Program-made: the position numbers and the translations under genes
The notes under the pieces: model-generated
Databases searched by the model: none
What the model was told of the DNA's origin: nothing
Seen by the model: the letters and a program-made list of their open reading frames with translations, nothing else
Assembly (NCBI GenBank): GCA_018340805.1
Contig: JACMZG010001913.1
Span: forward strand, 42,548,881 to 42,612,880
DNA from: Microvelia longipes
Lineage: Eukaryota > Arthropoda > Insecta > Hemiptera > Veliidae
Reading direction: 5' to 3'
DNA: 64,000 nt
In this document: in pieces, positions 2,553 to 39,201 of the stretch
Position numbering within the stretch: the first letter of the stretch is position 1
Layout of the letters: each line of letters begins with the position of its first letter

Positions 2553-2676
2553 GGTACACGTACTCATGTAGTGTATCTACAGTCTAGGTTCTCCATTAAC
2601 CTCGTTAGTTCATTTTTCAAAAAATAACTATAACAGTTATCATTTGATACTACCGAGTTTTGCAAAACATGAATAG

Positions 2677-9960: not shown

Positions 9961-11409
9961 AATACCTTGTAGCTGCTCTTCCGATTGGTACTCACTATTT
10001 TGTTAGAAATTTCACCTTTATACCAAGTTGATAACCAAACTTTCATATCACAGCACTTCTTTAAAGTGAAATTAGAAAAGAGCCACAGCACGATTTTTTT
10101 AAGTTCAAAAATTCATCCAATATTACAAGCAACTCTTCCGATTAGAACTATCTCCTACCATCATCAGAGCAACTTGGCTGTCACTTGGAAGAATTGCTGA
10201 TCGCTGACCCTGCGGAGGGTCAATCCATTGCCAACATTCCAGCTTGGTCGTTAGATCACGAAGACTACACCGTTACTTTGGGAACTACAGCCCTTTTTTC
10301 CAGCACTCTCAAAATGAGTCTTCCCAAGACGGAGCATCAAATGCCCCTAGAACATCTAGGGAAACCATGGTAATTTGCTCTTTCTTATCCAATGCAGATA
10401 AAATATGGTACCAGATGTGTCAAATTATTAAGAAACAAGTAATCAAACCCATCAAACCATTCATGACTTCATTCAGTGTTTACTCGTCATCATGTTAACA
10501 AAGCCATTTCTTGGGCATTGTCACTTCTCAACTACTTAGTCACAGCAAAACAATGGTTTCTATTGAGGACGAGTCATTCATGGTTAACTAGTCTTATCTC
10601 CAGGGTCCTCCTTATTCACTCTAACAGAGGAGATCAAATCGTAATTATTACAACAAAAACCATGCAATTTTTATATTAAATCAGTATGTTAACTTGTTTG
10701 CACGTGGTACGAATTTGAAGTAAATATTTACCACGCAGCTATTAATATAGCATTCATTTAGGTTCTTCGTTGGTTGTAAGAAGCTAATAAAATTATCATA
10801 AAACAAATCATTCCATATTGATTAAATCGGACTAGTGTATAAGAGCTGCTAAAAGATTGAACCTTGTATGGAACACCTAAAAGAATACTTGATACAAGTA
10901 CCTTTTAGTTGGAAAGCTGGGGCACTTTTCATATCAAAAATTCTTTTATGAAGCCAATGATTTTAAAGCCGACATTCTTCTCTTTGAATGCAGTTTACCT
11001 AACTCACATTCCCAAAGAACAAAGACGATTCGGGACGGGTTGAAAAGAAACAATGCTTTTAAAATTGAATGAAATACTCTCTTTGTCCACTTTTATGCCC
11101 CCCCCCCACCTACACTTTTTTCTATTGAATGCACAACAATGTTATATATTTGATATTTTCGAAGATTTAACAATAAAATTGAGTGTGAATTAATTAACTT
11201 ATAGCATACTTTAGTTTTGAGTCAACATCGTGTAATTTCTTTAAGATTTCTAATGATGTTTCTTTAGTAGAAGCAAAACGATGGAAACTTACATTTTCAG
11301 TCGTTATAAGAAGATAATAAGCTTTTTAACTTATTACTCAAACAAAATACCTCGAAATTTTCTCAAAACAATCCCATTCTTAGAGGCAGAAAGAGAAGTG
11401 ATAATTGGC
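9961..11409. other. Low-information stretch with overlapping short open frames, no recognised gene
   Basis: Positions 9985-10679 contain a chain of 62-84-codon open frames in two + frames and slightly higher G+C than the flanks. This could be a decayed retroelement, but no conserved motif could be matched. 10680-11409 is plain A+T-rich sequence with a C run near 11099. Confidence 0.35.
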
Positions 11410-14078: not shown

Positions 14079-14513
14079 TATTGGAAAAGAAATCCTCCTC
14101 TTAAATTTTGAATCGTACGGATTACATTAATGAAACTTGGGCAATTTTTTTGTGATTTTTTTGTGATGTAGTGAAATTTAAGAGTCCCATACAACACTGT
14201 ATTTTACAAAAAAAATAGAAGGTAAACTTCTAATGGGTTTTTTACTTCTTGGGGAAAATAAAATTTTCATTTTTCCTGTTCTTTGTTTTTGTATAAAACC
14301 GCTGTTGTGGATGAAATAAGTGCCTAAATTAAAAAAAAAAGCTCACTTAAAATTAAAGCTTAAGTATGGACATTAAAAAGAATTTGGCGCGAGAAAAAAT
14401 ACCGTATTTTTGACTTAAGAACACGTATCATTCTTCGCTTTACTCTTATTTAAAGGTATTTATAGTCACTAATGCTGCTAGATTTGGGAAAACCCTAATT
14501 ATCTTTTCTTAAC

Positions 14514-14520
14514 CCTTGTA
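14514..14520 (+). other. Left target-site duplication of the giant foldback element
   Basis: CCTTGTA lies immediately left of the terminal GGGTACTCAC and is repeated at 29288-29294 just outside the other terminus. An extra C on both sides makes 8 bp possible, depending on where the terminus is drawn. Confidence 0.75.
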
Positions 14521-14830
14521 GGGTACTCACTATTTCACCGAACTGCCGAATTTTTGCCGAACTTTTGCCGAACTATGTATAGCTAAGTGTATATGTAAAA
14601 AACGCTCAAAAATAAATAAAAATATCGTATAGATTGTCAAAAATATTAATATTTGTGTAATAGACTATAAATTAATATACTGTATTGCGGAATTTAACAT
14701 ACCTGTCGTGAAAGAAACATATATTATTTAACACAATACTTTATTAAAAAAATAATAATTATTTAACTATTGCTAACTATATGGTCTAATATAAAACACA
14801 AAAAATAGAAAATGTAAACATTGTAAACGT
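14521..14830 (+). repeat. Left terminal inverted repeat
   Basis: Within the first 60 bp the CCGAA(C) core occurs four times at about 10-14 bp spacing (CACCGAACTG, GCCGAATTTT, GCCGAACTTT, GCCGAACTAT). The rest is A+T-rich and merges into the first satellite monomer at about 14820. It is the mirror of 28985-29287. Confidence 0.85.
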
Positions 14831-17800
14831 ATACAGAGTAACAGCAGTAGTAACATACTGCAAATTAATAATTCTGCGTTGCGGCTTTAGTATAGTTCGG
14901 CAACAATGTATAGTTCGGCCGAACAATATAAAATTCTATATAAAATCAGGGGATTGTTGAAATTAAATAAAACTTTGTAAATGTATACAGAGTAACAGCA
15001 GTAGTAACATACTGCAAATTAATAATTCTGCGTTGCGGCTTTAGTATAGTTCGGCAACTATGTATAGTTCGGCCGAACATTATAAAATTCTATAGAAAAT
15101 CAGGGAATGGATGAAATTATATAAAACTTTATAAACGTATACAGAGTAACAGCAGTAGTAACATAATGCAAATTAATAATTATGCGTTGCGGCTTTAGTA
15201 TAGTTTGGCAACTTTGTATAGTTCGGCCGAACATTATAAAATTCTATATAAAAACAGGGGATTGTTGAAATAAAATAAAACTTTGTAAACTTATACAGAG
15301 TAACAGCAGTAGTAACATAATGCAAATTAATGATGCGGGTTTAGCATAGTTCGGCAACTTTGTGTAGTTCGGCCGAACATTATAAAATTCTATATAAAAT
15401 CAGGGGATTGTTGAAATTAAATAAAACTTTGTAAACGTATACAGAGTAACAGCAGTAGTAACATACTGCAAATTAATAATTATGCGTTGCGGCTTTAGTA
15501 TAGTTTGGCAACTATGTATAGTTCGGGCGAAATTATATAAAATTCTATATAAAATCAGGGAATGGTTGAAATTAAATAAAACTTTGTAAACGTATACAGA
15601 GTAACAGCAGTAGTAACATACTGCAAATTAATAATTCTGCGTTGCGGCTTTAGTATAGTTCGGCAACTTTGTATAGTTCGGCCGAACAATATAAAATTCT
15701 ATAAGATCAGGGGATTGTTGAAATTAAATAAAACTTTGTAAACGTATACAGAGTAACAGCTGTAGTAACATACTGCAAATTAATAATTCTGCGTTGCGGC
15801 TTTAGTATAGTTCGGCAACTATGTATAGTTCGGCCAAACTATATAAAATTCTATATAAAATCAGGGAATGTTTAAACTGAAATAAAACTTTGTAAACAAA
15901 TACAGAGTAACAGCAGTAGTAACATAATGCAAATTAATAATTCTGCGTTGCGGCTTTAGTATAGTTCGGCAACTATGTATAGTTCGGCCGAACTATATAA
16001 AATTCTATAAAAATCAGGGAATTGTTGAAATTAAATAAAACTTTGTAAACGTATACAGAGTAACAGCAGTAGTAACATACTGCAAATTAATAATTCTGCG
16101 TTGCGGCTTTAGTATAGTTCGGCAACTTTGTATAGTTCGGCCGAACATTAAAAATTCTATATAAAATCAGGGGATTGTTGAAATTAAATAAAACTTTGTA
16201 AACTTATACAGAGTAACAGCAGTAGTAACATAATGCAAATTAATGATGCTATATTGCGGGTTTAGCATAGTTCGGCAACTTTGTATAGTTCGGCCGAACT
16301 ATATAAAATTCTATATAAAATCAGGGGATTGTTGAAATTAAATAAAACATTGTCAACGTATACAGAGTAACAGCAGTGGTAACATACTGCAAATTAATAA
16401 TTATGCGTTGCGGCTTTAGTATAGTTCGGCAATATGTATAGTTCGGCCGAACTATATAAAATTCTATATAAAATCAGGGAATGGTTGAAATTAAATAAAA
16501 CTTTGTGAACAAATACAGAGTAACAGCGGTGTAACATACTGCAAATTAATAATTCTGCGTTGCGGCTTTAGTATAGTTCGGCAACTTTGTATAGTTCGGC
16601 CGAACATTAAAATTCTATATAAAATCAGGGATTGTTGAAATTAAATAAAACTTTGAAACGTATACAAAGTAACAGTAGTAACATAATGCAAATTAATAAT
16701 TCTGCGTTGCGGCTTTAGTATAGTTCGGCAACTATGTATAGTTCGGCCGAACTATATAAAATTCTATAAAAAATCAGGGAATGGTTGAACTGAAAAAAAA
16801 CTTTGTAAACGTATACAGAGTAACAGCAGTAGTAACATACTGCAAATTAATAATTCTGCGTTGCGTATTTAGTATAGTTCGGCAACTATGTATAGTTCGG
16901 CCGAACATTATAAAATTCTATATAACATCATGGAATGTTTAAACTGAAATAAAACTTTGTAAACTAATACAGAGTAACAGCAGTGGTAACATACTGCAAA
17001 TTAATAATTCTGCGTTGCGGCTTTAGTATAGTTCGGCAACTATGTATAGTTCGGCCGAACATTATAAATTCTATATAAATCATGGATGTTTAAACTGAAA
17101 TAAAACTTTGTAAACTAATACAGAGTAACAGCAGTGGTAACATACTGCAAATTAATAATTCTGCGTTGCGGCTTTAGTATAGTTCGGCAACTTTGTATAG
17201 TTCGGCCGAACTATATAAAATTCTATATAAAATCAGGGGATTGTTAAAATTAAATAAAACTTTGTAAACGTATACAGATTAACAGCAGTAGTAACATACT
17301 GCAAATTAATAATTCTGCGTTGCGGCTTTAGTATAGTTCGGCAACTATGTATAGTTTGGCCGAACTATATAAAATTCTATATAAAATCAGGGAATGTTTA
17401 AACTGAAATAAAACTTTGTAAACAAATACAGAGTAACAGCGGTGGTAACATAATGCAAATTAATAATTCTGCGTTGCGGCTTTAGTATAGTTCGGCAACT
17501 ATGTATAGTTCGGCCGAGCATTATAAAATTCTATACAAAATCAGGGAATGGTTGAAATTATATAAAACTTTGTAAACGTATACAGAGTAACAGCAGTGGT
17601 AACATACTGCAAATTAATAATTCTGCGTTGCGGCTTTAGTATAGTTTGGCAACTTTGTATAGTTCGGCCGAACATTATAAAATTCTATATAAAATCAGGG
17701 GATTGTTGAAATTAAATAAAACTTTGTAAACTTATACAGAGTAACAGCAGTGGTAACATACTGCAAATTAATAATTCTGCGTTGCGGCTTTAGTATAGTT

Positions 17801-20800
17801 CGGCAACTATGTATAGTTCGGCCGAGCATTATAAAATTCTATAGAAAATCAGGGAATGGTTGAAATTAAATAAAACTTTGTAAACGTATACAGAGTAACA
17901 GCAGTGGTAACATACTGCAAATTAATAATTCTGCGTTGCGGCTTTAGTATAGTTTGGCAACTTTGAATAGTTCGGCCGAACATTATAAAATTCTATATAA
18001 AATCAGGGGATTGTTGAAATTAAATAAAACTTTGTAAACTTATACAGAGTAACAGCAGTAGTAACATAATGCAAATTAATGATGCTATATTGCGGGTTTA
18101 GCATAGTTCGGCAACTTTGTATAGTTCGGCCGAACTATATAAAATTCTATATAAAATCAGGGGATTGTTGAAATTAAATAAAACATTGTCAACGTATACA
18201 GAGTAACAGCAGTGGTAACATACTGCAAATTAATAATTATGCGTTGCGGCTTTAGTATAGTTCGGCAACTATGTATAGTTCGGCCGAACTATATAAAATT
18301 CTATAAAAATCAGGGAATGGTTGAAATTAAATAAAACTTTGTGAACAAATACAGAGTAACAGCGGTGGTAACATAATGCAAATTAATAATTCTGCGTTGC
18401 GGCTTTAGTATAGTTCGGCAACTTTGTATAGTTCGGCCGAACATTATAAAATTCTATATAAAATCAGGGGATTGTTGAAATTAAATAAAACTTTGAAAAC
18501 GTATACAAAGTAACAGCAGTAGTAACATAATGCAAATTAATAATTCTGCGTTGCGGCTTTAGTATAGTTCGGCAACTTTGTATAGTTCGGCCGAACTATA
18601 TAAAATTCTATACAAAATCAGGGGATTGTTAAAATTAAATAAAACTTTGTAAATGTATACAGAGTAACAGCAGTAGTAACATACTGCAAATTAATAATTC
18701 TGCGTTGCGGCTTTAGTATAGTTCGGCAACTATGTATAGTTCGGCCGAACTATATAAAATTCTATAAAAATCAGGGAATGTTGAATGAAAAAAAACTTTG
18801 TAAACGTATACAGAGTAACAGCAGTAGTAAATACTGCAAATTAATAATTCTGCGTTGCGTATTTGTATAGTTCGGCAACTATGTATAGTTCGGCCGAACA
18901 TTATAAAATTCTATATAAATCATGGAATGTTTAAATGAAAATAAAACTTGTAAACGTATACAGAGTAACAGCAGTGGTAACATACTGCAAATTAATAATT
19001 CTGCGTTGCGGCTTTAGTATAGTTCGGCAACTTTGTACAGTTCGGCCGAACTAAATAACGGCCGAACTCTATATAAAATCAGGGGATTGTTGAAATTAAA
19101 TAAAACTTTGTAAATGTATACAGAGTAACAGCAGTAGTAACATACTGCAAATTAATAATTATGCGTTGCGGCTTTAGTATAGTTCGGCAACTATGTATAG
19201 TTCGGCCGAACATTATAAAATTCTATAGAAATCAGGGAATGGTTGAAATTAATAAAACTTTATAAACGTATACAGAGTAACAGCAGTAGTAACATACTGC
19301 AAATTAATAATTCTGCGTTGCGGCTTTAGTATAGTTCGGCAACTTTGTATAGTTCGGCCGAACTATAAAATTCTATAAAAATCAGGGAATGGTTGAAATT
19401 AAAAAAACTTTGTAAACGTATACAGAGTAACAGCAGTAGTAACATACTGCAAATTAATAATTCTGCGTTGCGTATTTAGTATAGTTCGGCAACTATGTAT
19501 AGTTCGGCCGAACATTATAAAATTCTATATAAATCAGGAATGTTTAAATGAAATAAAACTTTGTAAACTAATACAGAGTAACAGCAGTAGTAACATACTG
19601 CAAATTAATAATTCTGCGTTGCGGCTTTAGTATAGTTCGGCAACTATGTATAGTTCGGCCGAACATTATAAAATTCTATATAAATCATGGAATGTTAAAT
19701 GAAATAAAACTTTGTAAACTAATACAGAGTAACAGCAGTGGTAACATACTGCAAATTAATAATTCTGCGTTGCGGCTTTAGTATAGTTCGGCAACTTTGT
19801 ATAGTTCGGCCGAACTATATAAAATTCTATATAAAATCAGGGGATTGTTAAATTAAATAAAACTTTGTAAACGTATACAGAGTAACAGCAGTAGTAACAT
19901 ACTGCAAATTAATAATTCTGCGTTGCGGCTTTAGTATAGTTCGGCAACTATGTATAGTTCGGCCGAACTATATAAAATTCTATATAAAATCAGGGAATGT
20001 TTAAATGAAATAAAACTTTGTAAACAAATACAGAGTAAAGCAGTGGTAACATACTGCAAATTAATAATTCTGCGTTGCGGCTTTAGTATAGTTCGGCAAC
20101 TATGTATAGTTCGGCCGAACATTTAAAATTCTATATAAAATCAGGGAATGGTTGAAATTAAATAAAACTTTGTAAACGTATACAGAGTAACAGCAGTAGT
20201 AACATACTGCAAATTAATAATTCTGCGTTGCGGCTTTAGTATAGTTCGGCAACGATTAATAGTTCGGCCGAACATTAAAAATTCTATATAAAATCAGGGG
20301 ATTGTTGAAATTAAATAAAACTTTGTAAACGTATACAGAGTAACAGCAGTAGTAACATACTGCAAATTAATTCTGCGTTGCGGGTTTAGTATAGTTCGGC
20401 AACTTTGTATAGTTCGGCCGAACTATATAAAATTCTATATAAAATCAGGGGATTGTTGAAATTAAATAAAACTTGTAAACGTATACAGAGTAACAGCAGT
20501 GGTAACATACTGCAAATTAATAATTCTGCGTTGCGGCTTTAGTATAGTTCGGCAACTATGTATAGTTCGGCCGAACTATATAAAATTCTATATAAATCAG
20601 GGGATGTTTAAAATGAAATAAAACTTTGTAAACAAATACAGAGTAACAGCAGTGGTAACATACTGCAAATTAATAATTCTGCGTTGCGGCTTTAGTATAG
20701 TCGGCAACTATGTATAGTTCGGCCGAACATTATAAATTCTATATAAAATCAGGGATGGTTGAAATTAATAAAACTTTGTAAACGTATACAGAGTAACAGC

Positions 20801-23800
20801 AGTAGTAACATACTGCAAATTATAATTCTGCGTTGCGGCTTTAGTATAGTTCGGCAACTATGTATAGTTCGGCCGAACATTATAAAATTCTATATAAAAT
20901 CAGGGAATGGTTGAAATTAAATAAAACTTTGTAAACGTATACAGAGTAACAGCAGTGGTAACATACTGCAAATTAATAATTCTGCGTTGCGGCTTTAGTA
21001 TAGTTTGGCAACGATTAATAGTTCGGCCGAACATTATAAAATTCTATATAAAATCAGGGGATTGTTGAAATTAAATAAAACTTTGTAAACTTATACAGAG
21101 TAACAGCAGTAGTAACATAATGCAAATTAATGATGCTATATTGCGGGTTTAGCATAGTTCGGCAACTTGTATAGTTCGGCCGAACTATATAAAATTCTAT
21201 ATAAAATCAGGGGATTGTTGAAATTAAATAAAACTTTGTAAAAATACAGAGTAACAGCAGTGGTAACATACTGCAAATTAATAATTCTGCGTTGCGGCTT
21301 TAGTATAGTTCGGCAACTTTGTATAGTTCGGCCGAACTATATAAAATTCTATATAAAATCAGGGGATTGTTAAAATTAAATAAAACTTTGTAAATGTATA
21401 CAGATTAACAGCAGTAGTAACATACTGCAAATTAATAATTCTGCGTTGCGGCTTTAGTATAGTTCGGCAACTATGTATAGTTCGGCCGAACTATATAAAA
21501 TTCTATATAAAATCAGGGATGTTTAAACTGAAATAAAACTTTGTAAACAATACAGAGTAACAGCAGTGTAACATACTGCAAATTAATAATTCTGCGTTGC
21601 GGCTTTAGTATAGTTCGGCAACTATGTATAGTTCGGCCGAATTATAAAAATTCTATAAAAATCAGGGAATGGTTGAAATTAATAAAACTTTGTAAACGTA
21701 TACAGAGTAACAGCAGTGGTAACATACTGCAAATTAATAATTCTGCGTTGCGGCTTTAGTATAGTTTGGCAACTTTGTATAGTTCGGCCGAACATTATAA
21801 AATTCTATATAAAATCAGGGGATTGTTGAAATTAAATAAAACTTTGTAAACGTATACAGAGTAACAGCAGTAGTAACATACTGCAAATTAATATTCTGCG
21901 TTGCGGGTTTAGTATAGTTCGGCAACTTTGTATAGTTCGGCCGAACTATATAAAATTCTATATAAAATCAGGGGATTGTTGAAATTAAATAAAACTTGTA
22001 ACGTATACAGAGTAACAGCAGTAGTAACATACTGCAAATTAATAATTATGCGTTGCGGCTTTAGTATAGTTCGGCAACTATGTATAGTTCGGCCGAACTA
22101 TATAAAATTCTATAAAAAATCAGGGAATGGTTGAAATTAAATAAAACTTTGTGAACAAATACAGAGTAACAGCGGTGGTAACATAATGCAAATTAATAAT
22201 TCTGCGTTGCGGCTTTAGTATAGTTCGGCAACTTTGTATAGTTCGGCCGAACATTATAAAATTCTATATAAAATCAGGGATTGTTGAAATTAAATAAAAC
22301 TTTGTAAACGTATACAGAGTAACAGCAGTAGTAACATACTGCAAATTAATAATTCTGCGTTGCGGCTTTAGTATAGTTCGGCAATTTTGTATAGTTCGGC
22401 CGAACTATATAAAATTCTATAAAAAATCAGGGAATGGTTAAAATTAAATAAAACTTTGTAAATGTATACAGAGTAACAGCAGTAGTAACATACTGCAAAT
22501 TAATAATTCTGCGTTGCGGCTTTAGTATAGTTCGGCAACTATGTATAGTTCGGCCGAACTATATAAAATTCTATAAAAAATCAGGGAATGGTTGAACTGA
22601 AAAAAAACTTTGTAAACGTATACAGAGTAACAGCAGTAGTAACATACTGCAAATTAATAATTCTGCGTTGCGTATTTAGTATAGTTCGGCAACTATGTAT
22701 AGTTCGGCCGAACATTATAAAATTCTATATAAATCATGGAATGTTAAACTGAAATAAAACTTTGTAAACCTAATACAGAGTAACAGCAGTGGTAACATAC
22801 TGCAAATTAATAATTCTGCGTTGCGGCTTTAGTATAGTTCGGCAACTTTGTATAGTTCGGCTGAACTAAATAAAATCTATATAAAATCAGGGATTGTTGA
22901 AATTAAATAAAACTTTGTAAACGTATACAGAGTAACAGCAGTAGTAACATACTGCAAATTAATAATTCTGCGTTGCGGCTTTAGTATATTCGGCAACTTT
23001 GTATAGTTCGGCCGAACTATTTAAAATTTTATATAAATCATGAGATTGTTGAAATTAAATAAAACTTGTAAACGTATACAGAGTAACAGCAGTAGTAACA
23101 TACTGCAAATTAATAATTCTGCGTTGCGTTTAGTATAGTTCGGCAACTATGTATAGTTCGGCCGAACATTATAAAATTCTATATAAATCATGGAATGTTT
23201 AAACTGAAATAAAACTTTGTAAACTATACAGAGTAACAGTGGTAACATACTGCAAATTAATAATTCTGCGTTGCGGCTTTAGTATATTTCGGCAACTTTG
23301 TATAGTTCGGCTGAACTATTTAAAATTTTATATAATCATGGATTGTTGAAATTAAATAAAACTTGTAAACGTATACAGAGTAACAGCAGTAGTAACATAC
23401 TGCAAATTAATAATTCTGCGTTGCGTTTAGTATAGTTCGGCAACTATGTATAGTTCGGCCGAACATTATAAAATTCTATATAAATCATGGAATGTTTAAA
23501 CTGAAATAAAACTTTGTAAACTAATACAGAGTAACAGCAGTGGTAACATACTGCAAATTAATAATTCTGCGTTGCGGCTTTAGTATAGTTCGGCAACTTT
23601 GTACAGTTCGGCTGAACTAAATAACGGCCGAACTCTATATAAAATCAGGGGATTGTTGAAATTAAATAAAACTTTGTAACTATATACAGAGTAACAGCAG
23701 TAGTAACATACTGCAAATTAATAATTCTGCGTTGCGGCTTTAGTATATTTCGGCAACTTTGTATAGTTCGGCTGAACTATTTAAAATTTTATATAATATC

Positions 23801-24105
23801 ATGAGATTGTTGAAATTAAATAAAACATAGTAACCATATAAAATGTAACAGCCCTAGTAACATCCTGCTAATTAATAATGTTAGGTTGCGGGTTTAGTAT
23901 AGTTTGGCAGCTTTGTATAGTTCGGCCACACTATATAAAATTCTATATTAAATCAGGGGATTGTTGAATTTAAATAAAACTTAGTAAACATATAGAAGCA
24001 AAAGTTATATACTGCAAATTAATGATGCTATATTGCGGGTTTAGTTTAGTTTGGCGAAAGTATATAAATTTCTATATAAAATTAGGGGATTGTTGAAATT
24101 AAATG
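14830..24105 (+). repeat. 154-bp satellite, left arm array, about 60 copies
   Basis: Each monomer contains CAGAGTAACAGCAGTAGTAA, TTCTGCGTTGCGGCTTTAGT, GTTCGGCAACTATGTATAG and the palindrome ATAGTTCGGCCGAACTAT. Several subtypes alternate: ATCAGGGGATTGTTG, ATCATGGAATGTTTAAACTG and TGATGCTATATTGCGGG. Copies at the inner edge (23800-24105) are the most diverged, as expected for an array homogenised from the middle. Open frames inside it (e.g. near 18.7, 19.9 and 21.9 kb) are incidental. Confidence 0.95.
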
Positions 24106-24462
24106 AATCTGCATCTGCTAGATGTAGATGCTGATTTAAGGGGCAAGAATGATGTCAAAATCTCTATTTTTCATAAATTGAAAACATCAATATAACAACA
24201 ATAATAATAATTAAATCGCGTTTCCTTAGAGAGCGCGACATGAGGAATGACATTCCAAGAAGCTGCATTGTAGCAACCAAGGATTTAAAAATTTCTCACC
24301 TATTAGAAATTGGATCCAGGGATGCTACAGCAGCTATCTTGGAATGTAAGGTTAATGGCCAACTCTCCAACATCCATTGGTGGTGAGTCTATACTTAACG
24401 TATGACTCTGCCACCCCTCCCTCTTCGGAAGAGATGTGTAGAGTGGTTGGATAAGCCGAGGA
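24106..24462 (+). other. Junction between left satellite arm and Ty3/gypsy fragment
   Basis: Unique sequence. In one + frame 24260-24365 reads as a plausible protein segment (…ATKDLKISHLLEIG…), perhaps upstream gag-pol, but it is broken and could not be assigned. No LTR was seen on this side. Confidence 0.4.
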
Positions 24463-24831
24463 AAATAACCTTAAGATTGATGATATCTTAGACAATTTAA
24501 AAAGAGCTGTATTTTTTCTTCTCTAGATCTCGCTTCAGGTTATTGGCAGGTAGAAGTAAACGACCAAGACAAAGAAGAAACAGCTTTCGTGACGTGTGAA
24601 GGGCTTTACCAGTTCAAAGTCATGCTCTTTGGGCTATGTAATGCCCCTGCCACGTTTCAGCGGTTAATGGATTCGGTGCTGAGCGGATTAAAGTGGCGAG
24701 TAGCCATGGTTTATTTAGATGATGTTGTGATTTGGAGTCGGACCATTGAAGAGCACATAAAACGGTTAAGGGAAGTATTTATTCGGTTGCGTAAGGCTAA
24801 CTTAAAACTGAAGCCAAATAAGTGTCATTAA
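24463..24831 (+). pseudogene. Ty3/gypsy pol, reverse transcriptase N-terminal part
   Basis: Reading begins around LKIDDILDNLKRAV and continues, after a one-base frameshift in a T run near 24515, into SLDLASGYWQVEV. Then come FGLCNAPATFQRLMDS and the catalytic YLDD box (residues 42-45 of the frame opening at 24589). This is the RT palm of a Ty3/gypsy element. It stops at TAA near 24829, where a second one-base shift displaces the frame. The region upstream of the RT (gag, protease, first RT motifs) is missing or unreadable. Confidence 0.85.
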
Positions 24832-25709
24832 TTAAGAACAAAATAAGCTACCTGGGGCATATTGTAAGTGCAGATGGCATAGCGACGGATCCTGATAAAA
24901 CAAGAGCTGTTAGTGATTGGCCAATACCGTCATCTGTGAAGGAACTGCGCTCGTTTTTAGGGTTTGCAGCGTACTACAGAAGATTTATTCAAGGATTCGC
25001 TGAAATAGCAGCTCCATTGTATAAAGCTACTCAGCAGCGGGAGAAATTTGAGTTTGGGGATAAACTTCTAACGTCGTTTCAAGCTTTAAAAGCAGCACTA
25101 ACAAAAACACCTGTACTAGCTCTGCCAGATAATGCCGGTAAATTTTATTTAGATTGTGATGCAAGCGATATGGGACTAGGATCTGTGCTTTCGCAAATAC
25201 AAGGAGGAGAAGAGAGAGTCATAGCGTACGCGAGTAGAGCACTTTCAAAGGCAGAACGGCACTATTGTACAACGAGGAAAGAAATGCTAGCACTGGTGTA
25301 TGGAGTACAGCACTTCAAAGCATATTTATATGGCCGTCAATTTACTGTTAGAACAGACCATAATGCTTTAAGATGGTTACAATCATTCAAAGAACCCGAA
25401 GGACAGTTAGCGAGGTGGATTGAATTCCTTTCCCAATATAATTTTGAAGTGATCCATAGACCTGGTAAGCTTCACGCTAACGCTGACGGATTGTCACGAA
25501 TATGCAGACAGTGCAAAATTGTTGTGAAAGATCCAGAAGAAGACAATAATCTGACAGAAGATCGGACGATTTGTGCTATAGCATTGACAGATGACACGAT
25601 AGCTCAGGAGCAAAGATCTGATGTTGACTTAAAAGAAGTATTTAACTGGATAGAAGCAGGTGAACGACCTGAGTACCAGCAAGTACGAGGAAGCAATGCA
25701 CTCTTTTAA
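24822..25709 (+). pseudogene. Ty3/gypsy pol, RT thumb/connection and RNase H
   Basis: The 295-codon frame starts by frameshift inside the RT (KNKISYLGHIVSADGI), continues with the connection (LRSFLGFAAYYRRFI) and then a full RNase H. The catalytic acidic residues are visible: D113 (DCDASD), E154 (KEMLAL), D179 (TDHNALRW) and D222 (HANADGLSR). It ends at a stop near 25707. Beyond that point another frame (25712-25806, reading WAQWHRLSKNKDGV…) carries the expected RNase H-integrase linker, so a further one-base shift broke it. The domain is conserved in sequence, but the gene is not translatable as one pol. Confidence 0.88.
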
Positions 25710-26895
25710 GCCTGTGGGCACAATGGCACCGTCTGAGTAAAAACAAAGATGGGGTTTTGCAACGTCGGTGGGAAGAAACTGAAAAAGTTGTAGGTACCAG
25801 GTTGTTCTACCTCGTAAGTTGATCCCAATAGTACTGCAGGAGTTGCATGGGGGACTGTCGGGAGCACACTTAGGAATTAGCAGGACTAAGAAGAAGATAA
25901 GCTTACGGTTTTATTGGCCAGGGTATTTGCGGGAGATAGAAGATTGGGTTAGTTCATGCCAGGATTGCAACAAGCGAAAAGGTAGTAAAGCAAGAGCACC
26001 TATGCAAGTAGTAAAAACTGGGTTTCCATTCCAACGTGTTGCGTTAGACATTCTAGGCCCTTTACCTGAGACAACCCAGCAAAACAAGTATATTCTTGTC
26101 ATAGCCGATTATTTCACTAAGTGGGTAGAAGGTTTTGCATTGCAGAATATAGAAGCAAAAACTGTTGCTGATGTATTTTTGAAAGAATTTATTGCCCGCT
26201 ATGGTGTACCATATGAAGTTCATTCGGACCAAGGCCGTCAGTTTGAGTCACAGCTGTTTGTAGAACTAGCTGAGCAGTTGAACATGGTAAAAACAAGGAC
26301 TAGCCCTTACCATCCACAATCCGACGGGTTAGTCGAGCGGTTCAATCGAACCTTGGCCGATATGCTATCACACTATGTAAACGATCACCATGATGATTGG
26401 GATAAACATCTTCCTATGGTTATGATGGTCTATCGGTCAAGTGAACATGTTACTACTGGTGTTACGCCGCACTATGCATTGTTTGGAAGAGAGTTTCGAC
26501 TGCCTTTAGATCTTATGTATGGAGTACCAGAACCAATGCAGGGTTTGACTCAGTACATAACAGAGCGCAGACAGATTCTGGAGGAAGCATATAAGGTAAT
26601 TCGGAAGAGACAAGATTTGAAACATCAAGCTCAAAAAAGTTATTACGACAGATCATGCAGCGGGATAAAAGCTTTAAAGGAAGGGGATCGTGTATGGATT
26701 TGGTTTCCACACATGCGAAAAGGAAGAAGTGCAAAGTTTCATCGCCCCTGGGATGGGCCCTACATAGTGCGGAAAAAGTTATCTGATGTTACTTTTAGGG
26801 TCCAGAAAATTGGAAGTCGGACCAAACGCCTGGTGGTACACAGCAATCGAATGAAGCTGTTTAGAGAACAACCTGAGGACCTGACTGGAAATTAA
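25710..26895 (+). pseudogene. Ty3/gypsy pol, linker and integrase
   Basis: After the linker and a frameshift near 25805, a 358-codon frame (25819-26895) encodes a complete-looking integrase. The HHCC zinc finger is H10, H17, C47, C50. The DD35E triad is D77 (ALDILGP), D137 (HSDQGRQF) and E173 (GLVERFNRTL). A GPY/F-type C-terminal module follows (FHRPWDGPYIVRKKL). The integrase frame itself is uninterrupted. A purine tract (AGAGGGGAAGAG) directly after the stop is the expected polypurine tract. Frameshifts upstream make the element defective. Confidence 0.9.
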
Positions 26896-26906
26896 GAGGG
26901 GAAGAG

Positions 26907-27030
26907 TGTCATATATTTTTATATATGACATGAGTTTTTTTTTAAATGAGAATTTAAGTTATTGTTGAGAGTTAATATAATTAGATTGCTTTGAGTGTTG
27001 AACGTTAATCCGTGTTTTTCTTATAGGCTA
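26907..27030 (+). mobile_element. Truncated 3' LTR of the Ty3/gypsy fragment
   Basis: It starts TGTCATATATTTTTATATAT right after the polypurine tract; the first 24 bp form a perfect palindrome ending ATGACA. The LTR is cut after roughly 120 bp by the LINE fragment. No 5' LTR copy was recognised, so full LTR length is unknown. Confidence 0.55.
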
Positions 27031-27039
27031 CGCTACAGT

Positions 27040-28148
27040 ATGATTTCTTTTGATATGCCTAGTGACGATGGGCCCCCCACTTTTAGGCGCAACCCCAGGA
27101 AGACTGACTGGACGGCTTTCTTTGAGAAGCTGTCCTCTCTTCCTGAGTAAACGCCTGGGGATTATGGCAATGGCCAGATTTTTCTGGAAAGTGCCATAGC
27201 CCTCTCTAACAATCTAAGGAATACCTTTGAGGAAACCTGCCCCTTAGTTTCTGAACCGATGCGTAAGGTTCGATGGTGGACTCGCCATCTTTCTCTTCTA
27301 AAGAGGAAGATGCGAAGGGCTCTAAACCGTGCCGTGAGATCTATGGACCCACTGCACTGGGATAATTAATGAGGGGCTAGAAAGGAATTTAAAAAAAGAG
27401 GTCAGGAGAAGCAAATGAGCCAGCTGGCAGACCCATTGTGAGGAGATTTCATCCATGGCAGATGCTTTCAGGCTCTCTAAACTGCTTAGTGAGGAAGGGA
27501 GAAGAAATATGCTTGGATGATATGGCACATGGACCAAAGGAAAATATGGAACCTAGCTGATAAGGTTATCTCTTATGGTGCCATAAATTGGGCATTCAGT
27601 CAGTTTGAGGCTATAAAAGCACCAGGCCCTGACAGGATTCCTCTTATTGTGCTGCAGCGTAGCATGGATGTCATTTACCCATCTTTGAGTAAATTATTTC
27701 GAGCTAGCGTGGCATGGGAGGAGGTTCCCCGGAATGGAAGGCGGCTAGGGTGGTCTTTATTCCTAAACCTGGGAAGACTGACTACACTCAGGCTAAGTCT
27801 TTCAGACCTATTTGCCTTACTTCTTTTATAGGTAAGGGCCAAGAAAGGATTATGAATAATTATATCCGTGAGGAATTTCTCTCCCGTGGCCCTCTTTATC
27901 CAAACCAGCATGCTTTTCAGTGGCATAAGTTGACTGAATCTGCCCTTCATGCGCTGGTCAGTGAGGTTGAGAAATTTCTGGACTCTGGAGAATTCTGCCT
28001 TGCTCTCTTCTTTGATGTTGAGGGTGCCTTCGATCGGGCAAGAATTAAGGTCATATGCAAAGCTCTCAGTGAAAGAGGGTCCCCAAAGGCCCTTACGAAC
28101 TGGGTTACCTCCTTATTGGAGGTGACGGAGGGGCGGAGGTTCAAGTGG
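27040..28148 (+). pseudogene. Non-LTR (R1/I-like) reverse transcriptase fragment
   Basis: A pre-RT linker (NPRKTDWTAFFEKL…RWWTRHLSLLKRKM) with in-frame stops leads into RT motifs. These are KAPGPDRIPL; then, in another frame after about 27720, VVFIPKPGKTDYTQAKSFRP, YPNQHAFQ and the motif A segment FFDVEGAFDRA. The copy ends abruptly at about 28148, where inverted satellite begins, so motifs B and C (FADD) are absent. At least three stops and one frameshift show it is dead. The FIPKPGKTDY style points to the R1/I group, but the clade is not certain. Confidence 0.8.
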
Positions 28149-28985
28149 CTATACTAAAGCCGCAACGCAGAATTATTAATTTGCATTATGTTACCACCGC
28201 TGTTACTCTGTATTTGTTTACAAAGTTTTATTTAATTTCAACCATTCCCTGATTTTATATAGAATTTTATATAGTTCGGCCAAACTATACATAGTTGCCG
28301 AACTATACTAAAGCCGCAACGCAGAATTATAAATTTGCAGTATGTTACCACTGCTGTTACTCTGTATTAGTTTACAAAGTTTTATTTCAGTTTAAACATT
28401 CCATGATGTTATATAGAATTTTATAATGTTCGGCCGAACTATACATAGTTGCCTAACTATACTAAAGCCGCAACGCAGAATTATTAATTTGCAGTATATA
28501 ACTACTGCTGTTACTCTGTAATCATTTACAAAGTTTTATTTAATTTCAACCATTCCCTGATTTATATAGAATTTTATATAGATATACATAGTTGCGTTGC
28601 CGAACTATACTAAAGCCGCAATACAGAATTATTAATTTGCAGTATGTTACCACTGCTGTTACTCTGTATTTGTTTACAAAGTTTTATTTAATTTCAACCA
28701 TTCCCTGATTTTATATAGAATTTTATATAGTTTGGCCGAACTATACATTGTTGCCGAACTATACTAAAGCCGCAACGCAGAATTATTAATTTGCATTATG
28801 TTACTACTGCTGTTACTCTGTATACATTTACAAAGTTTTATTTAATTTCAACAATCCCCTGATTTTATATAGAATTTTATATTGTTCGGCCGAACTATAC
28901 ATTGTTGCCGAACTATACTAAAGCCGCAACGCAGAATTATTAATTTGCAGTATGTTACTACTGCTGTTACTCTGTATACGTTTAC
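28149..28985 (-). repeat. 154-bp satellite, right arm array, 5-6 inverted copies
   Basis: It has the same monomer as the left arm, in reverse complement (ACTATACTAAAGCCGCAACG recurs). Copies share the left-arm subtypes, including the TTTAAACATTCCATGATG variant. It is about one eleventh of the left array length. Confidence 0.95.
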
Positions 28986-29287
28986 AATGTTTACATTTTC
29001 TATTTTTTGTGTTTTATATTAGACCATATAGTTAGCAATAGTTAAATAATTATTATTTTTTTTAATAAAGTATTGTGTTAAATAATATATGTTTCTTTCA
29101 CGACAGGTATGTTAAATTCCGCAATACAGTATATTAATTTATAGTCTATTACACAAATATTAATATTTTGACAATCTATACGATATTTTTATTTATTTTT
29201 GAGCGTTTTTTACATATACACTTAGCTATACATAGTTCGGCAAAAGTTCGGCAAAAATTCGGCAGTTCGGTGAAATAGTGAGTACCC
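28985..29287 (-). repeat. Right terminal inverted repeat
   Basis: Near-perfect reverse complement of 14521-14830, ending GGTGAAATAGTGAGTACCC. It is followed by the target duplication CCTTGTA (29288-29294). Confidence 0.85.
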
Positions 29288-29493
29288 CCTTGTAGTTATG
29301 TTCTCAATCCAAAAATAAGGCATTTCTTTCTAATTCTTACCAATGTCAATACTCAAGCTTCAATTTTAAGTTGAAATGCTTAACTTTTATACATTAGACA
29401 ATTACTTACCTCAAAAAAGAAGTTTTATATAAAAATAAGCAATATGCTTTAAAAATTAAGAGGAGTGCGGGGAAATTTTTGTTCCACTCTGTA

Positions 29494-29783
29494 TAGTCCA
29501 AGAGCCCAGGGGTGTTTTGTTAATAAAAAGTTTAATGGCTGGAATCGGTCTCAATTTTTCGTAAATACCTTCCTTAACAAGGATCTGCAATTCTGCCGAC
29601 TCGTATCGGATGGGTGTCCCAGGCAGAACGCACTTTAGGGGTCAAAGGTTCTGCCTGGGACACCCATCCGATACGAGTCGGCAGAATTGCAGATCCTTGT
29701 TCAGGAAGGTATTTACGAAAAATTGAGACCGGTTCCAGTCATTACACTTTTTATTAACAAAACACCCCTGGGCTCTTGGTCTA
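29494..29783. mobile_element. Foldback MITE, ~136-bp arms
   Basis: Left arm 29494-29629 and right arm 29648-29783 are near-perfect inverted copies with an 18-bp loop. The termini read CCAAGAGCCCAGGGGTGTTT. A 3-bp direct repeat flanks it (GTA, or TAG if the ends are drawn inward), compatible with a PIF/Harbinger-type MITE. A fragment of the same element lies at 35604-35669. Confidence 0.75.
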
Positions 29784-30588: not shown

Positions 30589-31390
30589 AAATCAGGTACG
30601 GGGTTCCTCGGAACTTTTTTACAACTTATAAGATTTGCTAGGCTCATCCTATATACTTCGGATTCGCTTAGCTCGCCCTCAGAATATAAAATTCGCCAAA
30701 TTTATACTGCAAAAAGTCATTGGACTCGCTTCGCTTGTACTCAGATAGTAATTCATAATATTTAATCCCAACGGCCACCCATCCAACTTTGACATTGCTC
30801 GGAGCTACTTAACTTTTACGATTAAACAAAAGCCATATACTTACCGTATATAAAAGAGACTTAGTATACTTATTTTTATATAAAGGTATACGTACATATG
30901 TACTAAATTTCAGCTCAACTGGACCATTTCTTGATTTTTCTCAAGAAAAAGAAAACGTTTCTTGATTTTTCTAAGTCATTAGAAAAACTAAAACGTTTTA
31001 GAAAAAATTAACGCATATAATGTAGTGATACTTGACACATGTGTTGGTCTTATATATGACTATAAGCATGCCCAATTTCAAACATATCAACTAAATTTCC
31101 CGCGTTTTATGAATCTCCGAAAATGTAGCTGTGACATTATTGAAGGTTAATGATGTTTTAAAAAAATATTTTCCGGATAGCACAACTAGACCTAAAGATT
31201 GATTTTTGTGCTAATGTTCAACTCTCTTGCGTAAATACACTGGGAGCTATAATGATAACAGACACACACACACATACACCCCTGAAAAAGTCCTAAAAAC
31301 ATCTAAAACGGATAATTCCGGTGAAACCCCGGTTTCGGATTTTTTTGCCAACACAATACTTTCACTATATACCAGCAGTATAAATGAGGA
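30589..31390 (-). mobile_element. Composite repeat copy D, near full length
   Basis: On the minus strand the order is: 5' signature GTATTGTGTTGGC near 31355; TTATCCGTTTTAG; a TG-rich stretch; CTATCCGG; the GTGCCAAGTATCACTACA-like middle; the 5S-like block at 30767-30818 (AAGTTAAGTAGCTCCGAGCA, then GGATGGGTGGCCGTTGGG); two GCGAAGC-type blocks; and the end GAGGAACCCCGTACCTG near 30595. It is non-coding. Confidence 0.75.
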
Positions 31391-32139
31391 AAGTAAAAAT
31401 AATACAAACAACACAAGGAACTTCTTCCTTGAGTTGGAGCTGGCGAAGCCCCTTCAAGCAGCGACGGCGAAGTGGCAAAACGGCAACTGGCCGAAAATTT
31501 CTTTTTAATACTTAAGTTCATTTTAATTAAATAAACTTTAACAAAACGTACAACTAACATAACATAGAAAGTACAAATAAAGTTTCACAATGTTGTAACT
31601 TAGTTGACAACACATAGAAAGTCTGTACACGTTCTATTTACGACTGGACTTTCTGGCAGAAAGTTATATTACAAACTAGACTTTCGTATCCCTTACAAAG
31701 TCTCAAACAAATTGATTTCTTTCAAAACTCACAAAACCAAAACCTTCAATTAAACTTTAAATAAGAAAATTCAGTAATTACGTTGTCAAAAATTACATTT
31801 ACTTTTGTTTGTTTGGTAATTGTTGATTAATTTTTCTAATTCATGATACACGTTTTAAGGAGAATTGGTTGACATATATTTTTGACAGAGCTGTATAAAT
31901 TGCGAGTGCAGTAAATCAAAACTTTGTCTCTAATAAGAAAAGGGTTTAAACATAATGAAAAATTCAATGTCTCACACTCAAAAGAATAAATATCAAAATA
32001 AGTCTAAAAACTTAAAAACTTACTATTTGTTTTATACGATTTGACTTGACAAATTTTAAACTTTTATATATCATAAATATATAATGATCAAGGCATGAAG
32101 TATGGTGTTTTAGATTAGATTAATGACTTATCATTATAG
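31391..32139. other. A+T-rich stretch with a small GC-richer island, no gene recognised
   Basis: The island at about 31425-31490 contains GGAGCTGGCGAAGCCCC and produces short open frames on both strands, but there is no recognisable domain. Confidence 0.4.
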
Positions 32140-32900
32140 AATAATGACTAAGTTTTATACTCATTTAGAATGCTGACTTAATACTCATCTCTCTATAATA
32201 ATGCTTACTAAGTTTTATACATTTTGAAAAACTGACTTAATACTCTTTTCTCTAATATAATGCTGATTAAGTTTTATACTTTTTGAAAATGCTGACTTAA
32301 TACTCATCTGCCTAGAATAATGCTGACCTAATTCTCTTGTCTATAATAATGCTGACTAAGTTTTGTACATTCTGAAAATGCTGACTTAATACTCATCTCT
32401 CTAGAATAATGCTGACTAAGTTTTGTACATTCTGAAAATGCTGACTTAATACTCATCTCTCTAGAATAATGCTGACTAAGTTTTACACTCTCTGACAAAA
32501 ACTAAATGAACTTTTCTCTCTTAAAGAATAACGATTAAGTTAAAAAAGAAATGCCTCTCTCCTTTAATCTTCACTTCTTTCTCCTAGCTTATTTACATCG
32601 CTTTCAACGGCACTAATGATAAACTCTCTGAAAGCCGCTTCTGTCAAGAAGTGTAGAGACATATTTCCTTTCCCCCTATTTTGAACCTCCACGGCTTATT
32701 TTACTATCAACATTTTGACGAAGTTATATACATTGAGTTAAAAAGTTTATTTAATTTTCTTCTCTCTAGAATAATAATGAATCTTATAATAGTGAAGTTT
32801 TACACTCTCTGATCAATTAGCTTGCTTAGTACTCTTCTCTTAAGAATAATGCTGACTGAGTCCTATACTCTCTAATCTCTCAATCTTCCTTTAAGAGACT
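32140..32900 (+). repeat. ~31-bp diverged minisatellite, block 1
   Basis: The theme AATAATGCTGACTAAGTTTT followed by ATACTCTCTG/ATTCTGAAA alternates to give a ~62-bp double unit, clearest at 32330-32490. It is interrupted by unique sequence at 32520-32750. Confidence 0.8.
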
Positions 32901-33299
32901 GGCAATAATGACTGTCATAAATCTTTTTATTTTTAATTCTGTGCTCTTTATTAAAAAGAACTTAAATAAATTTAAAACCAATAGTGATTATCATAGATAT
33001 AATACAAAGAATAAAAATGTACTTACAATACCAACTCATAGACTTAAGAAGTCAGAAGTGGGTCATAGTGTATTGGGGAAAAATTTTTAATCATTTAGAT
33101 GTAAAAATTCAAGAGTTGCCAATAGATCATTTCAAAAAAAGCCGTAAAAAAAGCCTTGACAGAGCAGCCTTTTTATAGTATTAATGAGTAGTTCTATAAT
33201 AAAATTATGTTTGAGTAATTTATATTACTTCTAAATTTGGTACATTTGACGATTTGCCATTGTACTTGTATTAGTATTTATGCAAATAAAGATTTTTAT

Positions 33300-34440
33300 T
33301 CAAAATTAGCTAGCTAAGTACTTTACTCTCTAGACTAATGCTAAAGAATAATTAAGTTCCATACTTTAATGTATAAAAGGTCAACATATATTCTCTTGAA
33401 TTAATTTGACTATGCATTACACTCTCTAATAAGCTGTCTAAGCTCCATACTCTCTAGATAAGAGTTGACTCAGTACTTTATTTTCTAGAATAAAGCTGCT
33501 GACTTATTAGCAGCTGATAATATCTCAAACGTTTATCAATAATTTTGGGAATGATTCTGTCTAGGTTCTAAATAATTTATAATAATAGATTAACTGAGCT
33601 CAATACTATTAAGAATTACTTGAGAGAGTACTCTACTCTCTCTTTATCAGTGCAGATAAAGTTAATTTTGTCTGCTTTGACTAAGTGTGTGTGATTAATT
33701 TTATGCTTGCTTTATAATGTTGACTAAGTTATAAATTCTCTGGAATAACGCTGACTAAAAAAGTCCAATGCTTTTTAAAATAATTCTGACTAAGTTCAAT
33801 ACAATCTGAAATAATGCTGACTAAGCTCTATACTATCTAGAATATCACTGACCAAGTTCTATACTCTCTGGAATAATGCTAATTAGTTCAATACTCTCTG
33901 GACACTGACTTAGTTCTATACTCTCTGAAATAATGCAGACTAAGTTTTATACTCTCTGGAATAATGTGGATTAAGTTCTAGGCCCGTATTCAAAGACATT
34001 TTCCTAACATTATCCTAACATTTTCCTAACATTCTCCCTGTTCCTTCAGGAGAATGTTAGGAAAATGTCTTTGAATACGGGCCCTATACTCTCTGGAATA
34101 ACAATGACTAAGTTTTATACTCCCTGTAATAATCTGGACTAAGTTCTATACTCTCTGGAATAACACTACGAAGTTTTATATTCTCTGGAATAACAATGAC
34201 TAAGTTTTATACTCCCTGTAATAATCTGGACTAAGTTCTATACTCTCTGGAATAACACTACGAAGTTTTATATTCTCTGGAATAACAATGACTAAGTTTT
34301 ATACTCTCTGTAATAATGTGGACTAAGTTCTATGCTCTCTGGAATAACACTGACGAAGTTTTATACAATCTGGAATGATACTGACACAGTTCAATTATTT
34401 TTAAAACAATTTTGATTGATAATAATAAGCATACTGACTA
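33300..34440 (+). repeat. ~31-bp diverged minisatellite, block 2
   Basis: The same unit theme (CTGACTAAGTTCTATACTCT, CTGGAATAA) continues after a 400-bp gap, with a near-identical 124-bp internal duplication at about 34080-34300. It hosts a MITE at 33981-34083. Confidence 0.8.
33981..34083. mobile_element. 103-bp MITE with CTA target duplication
   Basis: TIRs GGCCCGTATTCAAAGACATT are mirrored at the right end, so the element is almost one hairpin. It is flanked by CTA at 33978-33980 and 34084-34086. Because it sits in a minisatellite, neighbouring units show the empty site (AAGTTCTATACTCTCTGG with a single CTA). A 3-bp duplication fits PIF/Harbinger. Confidence 0.85.
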
Positions 34441-36399
34441 AAGTTTATACTTTTTAGAATAAATTGAATATTTTTATCTTAAAGTTGTTTAGGCATAGTG
34501 GAATGTATCACTTATACAATTTCTTACACAAGTAACTATAATGCTTTAGCATAAAAGATAAATTTAATAAACGGAAAAGTCAAGGATATATATGGATGAC
34601 ATGAATAGAAAAATTAAATGTAGACAACATAAGCGAAAAGAAAATCACTTAGAAATGTCTTTTTTGATAAAACAAGAGATATTTTCATTAAGAAAGATAT
34701 TTAATTCTTGGACGAAGGCAAAAAACAGCTTTTAATAAAAAAGGTAAAATTATCGAAGAAAAAAAAGATGAACATTGTAACAGAAACTAAAAAAAATCCT
34801 AAGGAAGAAAATTTCTAACTTTCTACATCGGCTTTATGAATTTGCTTCTCTGGATGAAGAGGTAAGATGTTTTAATAAAAGAAAACAGCTTAGATCGGTG
34901 TAAAGCAACACAAAAAAATGTTTCTATAGTGAAACTGTAGGAATTGTGTATTGATGGAGAGCAAGTATAATATAAAAGATCAGTTGCAGGTTCTACGTTT
35001 AGAAATTTATGTTAAAAAGTAAATATAAAAAGTAAGAATCTCAACTGCTCTTTTCATATTAAATACGAAAAGGGAAGGAAAGTACGTCACGTTTTGTAGT
35101 GCTTCTGTAGCACATCTATATTATTTTATATTGCTAAAGGTTAATTAAAAATTCTTGAGTGAAGCTTCACAAGCCAGGTGAATTTCCTTCGAAATGCGTG
35201 CTTACTTGCTTGTCACTTGACTTGATTCAAGTTATAAGTTTATTCTTCATAAATTGAGCAGTAATTACTATTTGTTTCTGATTTTTCAATTTTCCTCATA
35301 TTTATTTATTTATTTATTATACAATTTTTAAAATGAGCCCTCAACAGATAAATTCAAAACAAGGCGCTCAGGAATAATAGAAACTAAAATAAATAAGTAA
35401 ATAGGTAAACTAAAATAGGTAAAAAGAGAAAAAAATCTGATTGTGACTAGTTATGAAAATTAGACAATAACAACAAAAATAATTAAAAGCTTAAAAATAA
35501 CTATATACTTTTATGAGGAAGTGGTCTTAAAAATAACACTAATAACAAATAGACTAATAAAGTTATTATACACTTAACATGAATTAACAAATTAACTAGA
35601 CATAGACCAAGAGCCCAGGGGTGTTTTGTTAATAAAAAGTGTAATGGCTGGAACCGGTCTCAATTTTTGAATTTCAAATTTACAGTCGCAAGAGTCAATT
35701 TGATTCCGGTGTAATGAAAACCCATCTCATTTGACGAAATTCCTTAAAGGAAATTCGCTAAAGGTGGAATCAGGGGGTGTGATGACGGTGCTATGTAGAA
35801 AAATATAATTAATATAACAGTCTTTTATTAAGCCTGTTTTTAATAAAGAGGAAAAATGCCATTCTTGTTCATATATTTTTCATTTTCAAAGAAAATTAAG
35901 CTAATGAAGTCGTCTGCATTTGTGGAAGGAGAGAGTAACACCCTCCCTTATTATACGCAAACAATAACATGAGAGGGTCAAAACTAAACGCATTGAACGC
36001 ATACTTCTAGTTTAGGCACTTACGCATAACATAAATGTCTGATCAAACTATAGTGTTTATTGGAGTATTTTACAGAGTAATTTAAACAATGTTCATTTAC
36101 ACAAACATAATTTTCACGTCTTCAAACCGTCTGAGCTTTATGAAGCTAACTATGAGAAGCTGATACTTAGCTAATTTTTTGTCGGAAAGCCTAAACGGTC
36201 GAGAAAAACGTACATTATTCATGTAGATATAAATGATCAATTACTTATTTCTAAATATTTATTTTATTCATAAATATACCTGAAGGATGATTTTTCTGTC
36301 AATTTTTATATCTGGTAACAAAAGTTCGTATTTAACATAGTCAAATAAACCACTATATTACTAGCATTAACACTAAAATTTAGGACGAAATCAGATAAA
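34441..36399. other. A+T-rich stretch, no gene recognised
   Basis: Apart from the MITE fragment at 35604-35669 and a TTTA-repeat tract near 35301-35320, nothing could be assigned. Confidence 0.4.
35604..35669 (+). mobile_element. Fragment of the 29.5-kb foldback MITE
   Basis: ACCAAGAGCCCAGGGGTGTT and the following ~45 bp match the outer arm of the 29494-29783 element. The match stops abruptly after CTCAATTTTT. Confidence 0.75.
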
Positions 36400-38760: not shown

Positions 38761-38802
38761 AGGAGTTTTGACTGCGAAATCGCTTCGCTTGTCCTCAATA
38801 TT

Positions 38803-39201
38803 TTAAATTACTAGATAAAAGTAGGCTTCAATTCTGTATGTTACAAAATTTATTTTGTTTTAATTATTCAGCCATTATTGTGACCATCTTCAGAACAATA
38901 AATGAAACATAAAGTAAATCAAATGAATTACTCACAATATGAAGACTGAAAAAACTAGATTGGACATGAAATTGACTGAAAACAAAAAATATTAAAATGT
39001 TTAATATCTGTTTGAATATTTTTTGTTTTCATTCATTTTCGTGTTCTATCTCGTCTTATAAGTCTTTATATTGCAAGTAATTTATTTGATTGATCTTATG
39101 TTTCAGTTATTGTTCTATAGCCACAATTATGGCTGAATAATTAAAACAAAATAAATTTTGTAGCATATAGAATTAAAGCCTACTTTTATCTAGTAATTTA
39201 A
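38803..39201. mobile_element. Near-perfect 399-bp foldback element
   Basis: TTAAATTACTAGATAAAAGT at the left is mirrored at the right end. The match runs, with modest divergence, to a centre near 39002, leaving almost no loop. It is non-coding. Confidence 0.75.

Follow-up and report, generated by a model that had tools for sequence, protein, structure and literature searches.

We analysed a window of 64,000 nucleotides from Microvelia longipes (Hemiptera, Veliidae), positions 42,548,881 to 42,612,880 of the forward strand of contig JACMZG010001913.1 in assembly GCA_018340805.1. Within it, 14.8 kb of sequence resembles a satellite locus; an earlier note, made from the letters of the DNA only, had described this stretch as a foldback-like element at 14514–29294. 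A discrete element is indeed present, with its limits corrected to 14522–29286, and we consider it likely that the stretch is one non-autonomous foldback element of the Mutator-like (MULE) type, mobilised in trans and possibly of the Rehavkus kind. Its parts, in window coordinates, are listed below; they rest on Tandem Repeats Finder (TRF), alignment and Pfam matches as noted, and include fragments of a Ty3/gypsy element and of a long interspersed nuclear element (LINE).

14522–29286: complete element, 14,765 bp, delimited by inverted ends and a flanking direct repeat
14513–14521, forward strand: left target-site duplication (TSD) CCCTTGTAG, an exact 9-bp match to 29287–29295
14522–14815, forward strand: left-hand terminal (flanking) domain, 294 bp long, part of the inverted repeat and starting with GGTACTCAC
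14816–24110, forward strand: left arm, an array of about 60 monomers of a 154-bp satellite (TRF, cyclic alignment), its inner edge degenerate (about 23840–24110)
24111–28147, forward strand: mosaic interior with a GC content of 43% (left array 31%); 24111–24483 unassigned
24484–26895, forward strand: Ty3/gypsy fragment with a truncated reverse transcriptase, RNase H and integrase spread over three open reading frames (ORFs; Pfam)
27708–28147, forward strand: piece of a LINE reverse transcriptase, truncated by the right arm (Pfam RVT_1, 8.5e-11)
28148–28992, reverse strand: right arm, the same 154-bp monomer inverted, 5.5 copies (TRF, alignment)
28993–29286, reverse strand: right terminal domain, an inverted copy of 14522–14815 with no substitutions and two 1-bp indels
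29287–29295, forward strand: right TSD CCCTTGTAG, an exact 9-bp match to 14513–14521

Aligned end against end with BLASTN, the inverted ends are identical at 379 of 381 positions, the remaining two being single-base gaps. In a longer alignment the first 491 columns contain no substitution and two 1-bp indels; the first substitution falls at column 492 (about window position 15012), and the inverted similarity carries on through the arms. The inverted termini of about 300 bp claimed for this locus are therefore real, and longer than claimed. A perfect 9-bp direct repeat, CCCTTGTAG, sits flush with both inverted ends. With this parse both ends begin GGTACTCAC, and the element ends read GGTACTCACTATTTC. 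Given the base composition of the window, a 9-bp match at two fixed points has a chance probability of about 1.1e-5. The duplication had been given as the 7-bp CCTTGTA, which is the inner part of the 9-bp repeat, the extra matches being one C and one G; a flanking direct duplication thus exists, but its length is 9 bp. Near-identical ends and the flush repeat make a single mobile, foldback-like unit well supported at this locus. Taken alone, the terminal domain showed no special folding (199 of 200 shuffles folded at least as well). Elsewhere in the window, at 9965–10000, CCTTGTAG is followed after 14 bp by GGTACTCACTATTT, an exact 14-bp match to the element end (9987–10000); no inverted GTGAGTACC occurs in the window beyond the element's own, and the match is either chance or a relict end.

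The length of the duplication bears on the superfamily, as a 9-bp TSD points to the Mutator/MULE group rather than to the P superfamily. The rival reading, to which the earlier note's comparison with Galileo pointed, is a Galileo-like foldback of the P superfamily with the 7-bp duplication CCTTGTA and ends reading GGGTACTCAC. Such a parse is formally possible, and Galileo, as described in excerpts of PMC3573991, does have tandem repeats inside long inverted ends together with 7-bp duplications. However, the match here reaches 9 bp, and a cut at 7 bp requires the flanking C and G to be coincidences (roughly 0.03 together, from a base-composition estimate). The inverted ends of Galileo, moreover, measure about 1.2–1.3 kb at most in the same source, far under the left arm here. 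The P-superfamily lead is thus disfavoured, and we regard a Galileo-like element as improbable.

A different account of the symmetry would be an ordinary satellite array that was inverted or rearranged in place, with an inverted duplication producing the symmetry of the ends and the 9-bp repeat arising by chance. Monomers do occur in both orientations, and the outer flanks of the element are themselves weakly similar as inverted repeats (14283–14423 against 29299–29438, 71% over 147 columns). The near-identical alignment of the ends nevertheless halts at the 9-bp repeat, for which the low chance probability given above also counts against this account. Divergence between the flanks greatly exceeds that between the ends, which argues for a separate, older palindrome, possibly a hairpin element into which the foldback landed. 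We judge rearrangement in place to be very improbable. The flank palindrome was not used as proof of insertion: only 1 of 1470 random pairs scored as high, but so did 21 of 1282 adjacent windows, because the region is rich in palindromic repeats.

The same 154-bp monomer runs in opposite orientation in the two arms, as had been proposed. TRF returned 60.1 copies at 14816–23994 and 5.5 inverted copies at 28149–28992, with the right array beginning at 28148–28149, and alignment to a cyclic consensus gave 62 left and 7 right rows, partial rows counted. Over the 65 of these 69 rows that have fewer than 20 gaps, pairs of rows have an average identity of 0.915 in the left arm, 0.895 in the right arm and 0.903 across the two. 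The first full monomer is identical in both arms, divergence between them starts inside the second, and monomer subtypes are common to both. The left arm is most degenerate where it meets the interior, monomers there having an identity to the consensus of 0.857 and the last, partial row one of 0.649.

We found no regular higher-order unit, mean identity being flat (0.913–0.923) over lags of 1–20. The left arm holds irregular repeated blocks, with runs of up to 6 consecutive monomers; the stretch 18198–19119 resembles one 25 monomers further along (mean identity 0.971), and two of its monomers (L10 and L22) are 100% identical. Seven runs of at least three monomers were observed, against a mean of 1.7 and a maximum of 7 in 300 permutations of monomer order (59 monomers were permuted, 60 entered the observed count), and the longest repeated run of 6 exceeds the permuted maximum of 5. 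These recurring blocks are the signature of segmental duplication inside the array.

The heptamer CCGAACT is common to the terminal domains and the arrays. Counted on either strand, each terminal domain has three copies (those on the left at element positions 17, 36 and 47), and the arrays have 142, of which 134 lie in the left arm and 8 in the right; the 4,037-bp interior and the 49,217 bp outside the element have none. Under dinucleotide shuffling, some 7-mer with three copies in the terminal domain and three in the monomer turned up in 28 of 2000 shuffles, and in 0 of 2000 when the test was limited to words with at least three G/C. Within the monomer the motif sites do not stand out as the best conserved; among all 12-bp stretches the palindrome (12 bp) ranks at 70% and its half site at 93%. 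We propose CCGAACT as a candidate transposase-binding site by analogy with the secondary binding sites discussed for Galileo repeats in excerpts of PMC3573991. The terminal domain and the monomer also share a 35-bp block at 77%, which resembles a published case in the element Tetris, but wider homology was rejected, as 111 of 1000 dinucleotide shuffles score equally; the short motif is the only likeness to hold up.

Two accounts of the array differ in when it grew. The transposon may have moved an already diversified array of dozens of monomers as the cargo of one arm, the monomers serving as about 140 extra transposase-binding sites and so linking satellite growth with transposition; we offer this tentatively, at rather less than even confidence. 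Alternatively, a small foldback was inserted first and the satellite expanded in place, the array never having moved whole. We think this second course possible, if somewhat doubtful; it differs from the foldback MULE reading in timing only, and our confidences in the two overlap. Growth in place would be in keeping with the near-identical blocks of the left arm (L10 and L22, and runs of 3–6 monomers) and with arm copy numbers that differ more than tenfold. Against it, the monomers average 91.5% identity whereas the ends show no substitution in 491 columns, so that the diversity seems older than the insertion, unless the ends were homogenised. Since monomers that differ by about 8.5% lie between ends free of substitutions over those columns, much of the monomer diversity probably predates the insertion, provided that the ends are not kept uniform by gene conversion, and the array, or much of it, would then have been carried in. 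Some of the near-identical blocks may have been added after insertion.

The interior contains truncated retroelement fragments that were absent from the earlier account. The gypsy fragment matches the Pfam families RVT_1 (3e-23), RT_RNaseH (5.1e-36), Integrase_H2C2 (4.1e-18) and rve (1.4e-12). Among 120 of the 1556 matches to its integrase, the best relative has 52% identity, and a few from mussel, carp or the metagenome-assembled genome of a symbiont have 44–47%; an endonuclease protein search gave five relatives. The remaining interior segments, 24111–24483 and 26896–27707, gave no Pfam match in the pieces scanned (about 26896–27140 lying outside the scan), and by eye they look like the start of a gypsy long terminal repeat and more LINE sequence. 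A reading of 24200–24480 as an endonuclease was dropped, with no Pfam match there.

The absence of a transposase, also proposed earlier, holds for the 28 ORFs of at least 90 amino acids in the window, none of which matches a transposase family in Pfam, the MULE DDE and P-type (THAP) kinds included. The cut-off was 1e-3 for eight of these ORFs (one covered over 104 of its 115 amino acids) and 0.1 for the other twenty. Weak matches to CTP-dep_RFKase (0.072) and CSLinker (0.067) fell far below the curated cut-offs and were disregarded. Scans of the window for Rfam families, at the gathering score, and for tRNAs came back empty.

Measured against published descriptions, the element behaves as a foldback MULE, a classification we regard as well supported. 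MULEs have duplications of 8–11 bp (PMC6446971, in excerpt), and the perfect 9-bp repeat falls in that range, as read from one insertion that a 7-bp parse would also fit; the 7–8 bp of Galileo and the P superfamily stand against a maximal match of 9 bp, with the same 7-bp parse possible from one copy. The long terminal inverted repeats (TIRs) expected of MULEs are represented by 491 columns without substitution. Long inverted tandem-repeat arms enclose a middle, as in foldback elements (in one copy), and the satellite near the inverted termini recalls Rehavkus. For that group TIRs of 26–400 bp are reported; the terminal domain measures 294 bp, yet 491 columns are free of substitutions, so that agreement hinges on the point at which the TIR is considered to stop. 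Arthropod or annelid hosts and a PHD-finger transposase are further marks of Rehavkus. Membership in Rehavkus or any named family is not established, as the element has no transposase and no reference sequence was compared.

Several points weigh against this reading and its extension to the array. Mobility rests on one locus, and we know of no transposase that acts on these ends. The TSD, seen at a single insertion, could also be read as 7 bp, and the identity of the ends may come from conversion, not youth. The 9.3-kb array is taken as it stands in the assembly. At least one of the 300 permuted monomer orders equalled the 7 repeated blocks observed. CCGAACT was picked after inspection, and the restriction to G/C-containing words was also made afterwards; 6-mers of any composition are not significant, 395 of 2000 shuffles doing as well.

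Under the foldback MULE reading, a transposase encoded elsewhere in the genome would bind the terminal domain, with CCGAACT as the candidate motif, excise the unit and insert it by cut-and-paste with a 9-bp staggered cut, as the inverted ends and the 9-bp duplication suggest. Motif-bearing monomers would have multiplied inside the arms by segmental duplication, through unequal exchange or slippage, and the lengthening and shortening of arms by these processes would have left them lopsided at 60 to 5.5. The original interior would have been lost and refilled with retrotransposon fragments through break repair by template switching, as in the formation of Pack-TIRs and Pack-MULEs. The truncated retroelement pieces fit such repair of an internal break; gap filling by template switching is described for animal Pack-TIRs in excerpts of PMC8277862, and derivatives of the element Muta1 are described as retaining their ends while their interiors vary (PMC5225508, in excerpt).

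At this one locus a satellite array of 60 copies and the shell of an apparently complete DNA transposon coincide in a single object that has kept its two ends and the TSD. Such a locus allows a test of whether whole arrays transpose and so spread satellites, or whether satellites grow later inside elements already inserted, as has been asked for Tetris and for the beetle satellite TCsat23. If true, transposition of an array as cargo would directly sow new satellite loci. The locus is also a warning that satellite and transposon annotation can divide a single element in two.

The window contains further repeats. About 200 bp outside the right end of the element, 29494–29783 is a 290-bp palindrome, 92% self-complementary and probably a hairpin miniature inverted-repeat transposable element (MITE); the outer ends of its arms match 35602–35668 at 95–98%. 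Among the matches listed, long self-complementary palindromes also occur at 2673–3099 (89%), 38800–39204 (84%) and 62786–63018 (81%), and are probably other hairpin MITEs. A separate tandem array with a period of about 62 bp (about 21.6 copies) occupies 5584–6860 and has diverged relatives elsewhere in the window, for example at 30656–30745, while 32116–34392 holds a cluster of related imperfect tandem repeats with a CTGACTAAGTTTTATACTC-like unit. Fairly intact LINE-like frames lie at 52817–56201, one with a Baculo_FP_2nd domain (361 amino acids) and one with an endonuclease domain (365 amino acids).

Exact patterns of the end and the monomer (24 and 25 bases) had no match in viral contigs, in a search from which records of the host's own genome were possibly left out. 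Helitrons are not known to carry inverted ends or to make target-site duplications. A 154-bp tandem repeat is described inside Helitron-2 of Drosophila virilis (PMC12910113, in excerpt); given that property of Helitrons, the equal length, which is the sole likeness considered, was taken as coincidence and kinship was rejected.

The nearest published object is Rehavkus-1_TC of Tribolium castaneum, likewise of kilobase size (9.5 kb), whose inverted termini contain TCsat23, a satellite of 164 bp, for the most part as 5 and 8 monomers (PMC10218199, in excerpt). Unlike it, the element here has no transposase, carries about 60 and 5.5 monomers of 154 bp and encloses retroelement fragments. The Rehavkus group is placed as sister to or within the MULEs, with the TIR range given above and a 9-bp TSD (Table 1 of PMC6446971); in the available part of that source its mini-satellite lies before the 3' TIR, whereas here both arms carry the satellite.

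Tetris of D. virilis, as described in excerpts of PMC4079207, shares with our element a terminal flanking domain followed by a tandem-repeat domain and a non-coding, variable middle, and it is non-autonomous. Its authors place it in Mutator on TSDs of 8–10 bp. They report that its satellite arrays reach 66 copies, and fibre fluorescence in situ hybridisation showed long arrays between two terminal domains. Tetris TIRs reach 1,735 bp with a repeat of about 220 bp, whereas here one complete-looking element has a 9.3-kb arm; the available sections of PMC10462019 do not mention Tetris. The claim that the present element is far larger than known ones is thus only partly right, given the size of Rehavkus-1_TC and the copy number of Tetris arrays. 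Both likenesses are drawn from descriptions, not sequences.

The repeats of the foldback FB4 are much shorter than 154 bp. FB4 and Ssk-FB4 of Drosophila melanogaster resemble our element as non-autonomous foldbacks with 9–10 bp TSDs and captured foreign sequence, and FB4, with TIRs of about 700 bp, is treated as a likely MULE that forms Pack-MULEs (PMC8277862, in excerpt). Tm1 of Meloidogyne and Muta1 of Aedes have 9-bp or 8–9 bp TSDs and composite inverted ends with subterminal tandem repeats, and are assigned MULE transposases of the Phantom clade in excerpts of PMC3169594 and PMC5225508; their repeat units of 12–15 bp and described lengths of about 1–3.2 kb are unlike those here. Galileo shares long inverted ends with internal tandem repeats, one of about 210 bp, but differs in its 7-bp TSD, TIRs of about 0.3–1.3 kb and P-type transposase (PMC3573991, in excerpt). 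MULEs with multiple TIRs in tomato and Arabidopsis also have end sequences tandemly duplicated in both arms, which is suggested to improve recognition by the transposase, but they hold two or three TIR copies and no satellite in the available part of PMC3310237. Set beside these systems, the locus is a large, lopsided new example of a transposon build known from beetles and flies, its novelty being judged within the open-licence literature.

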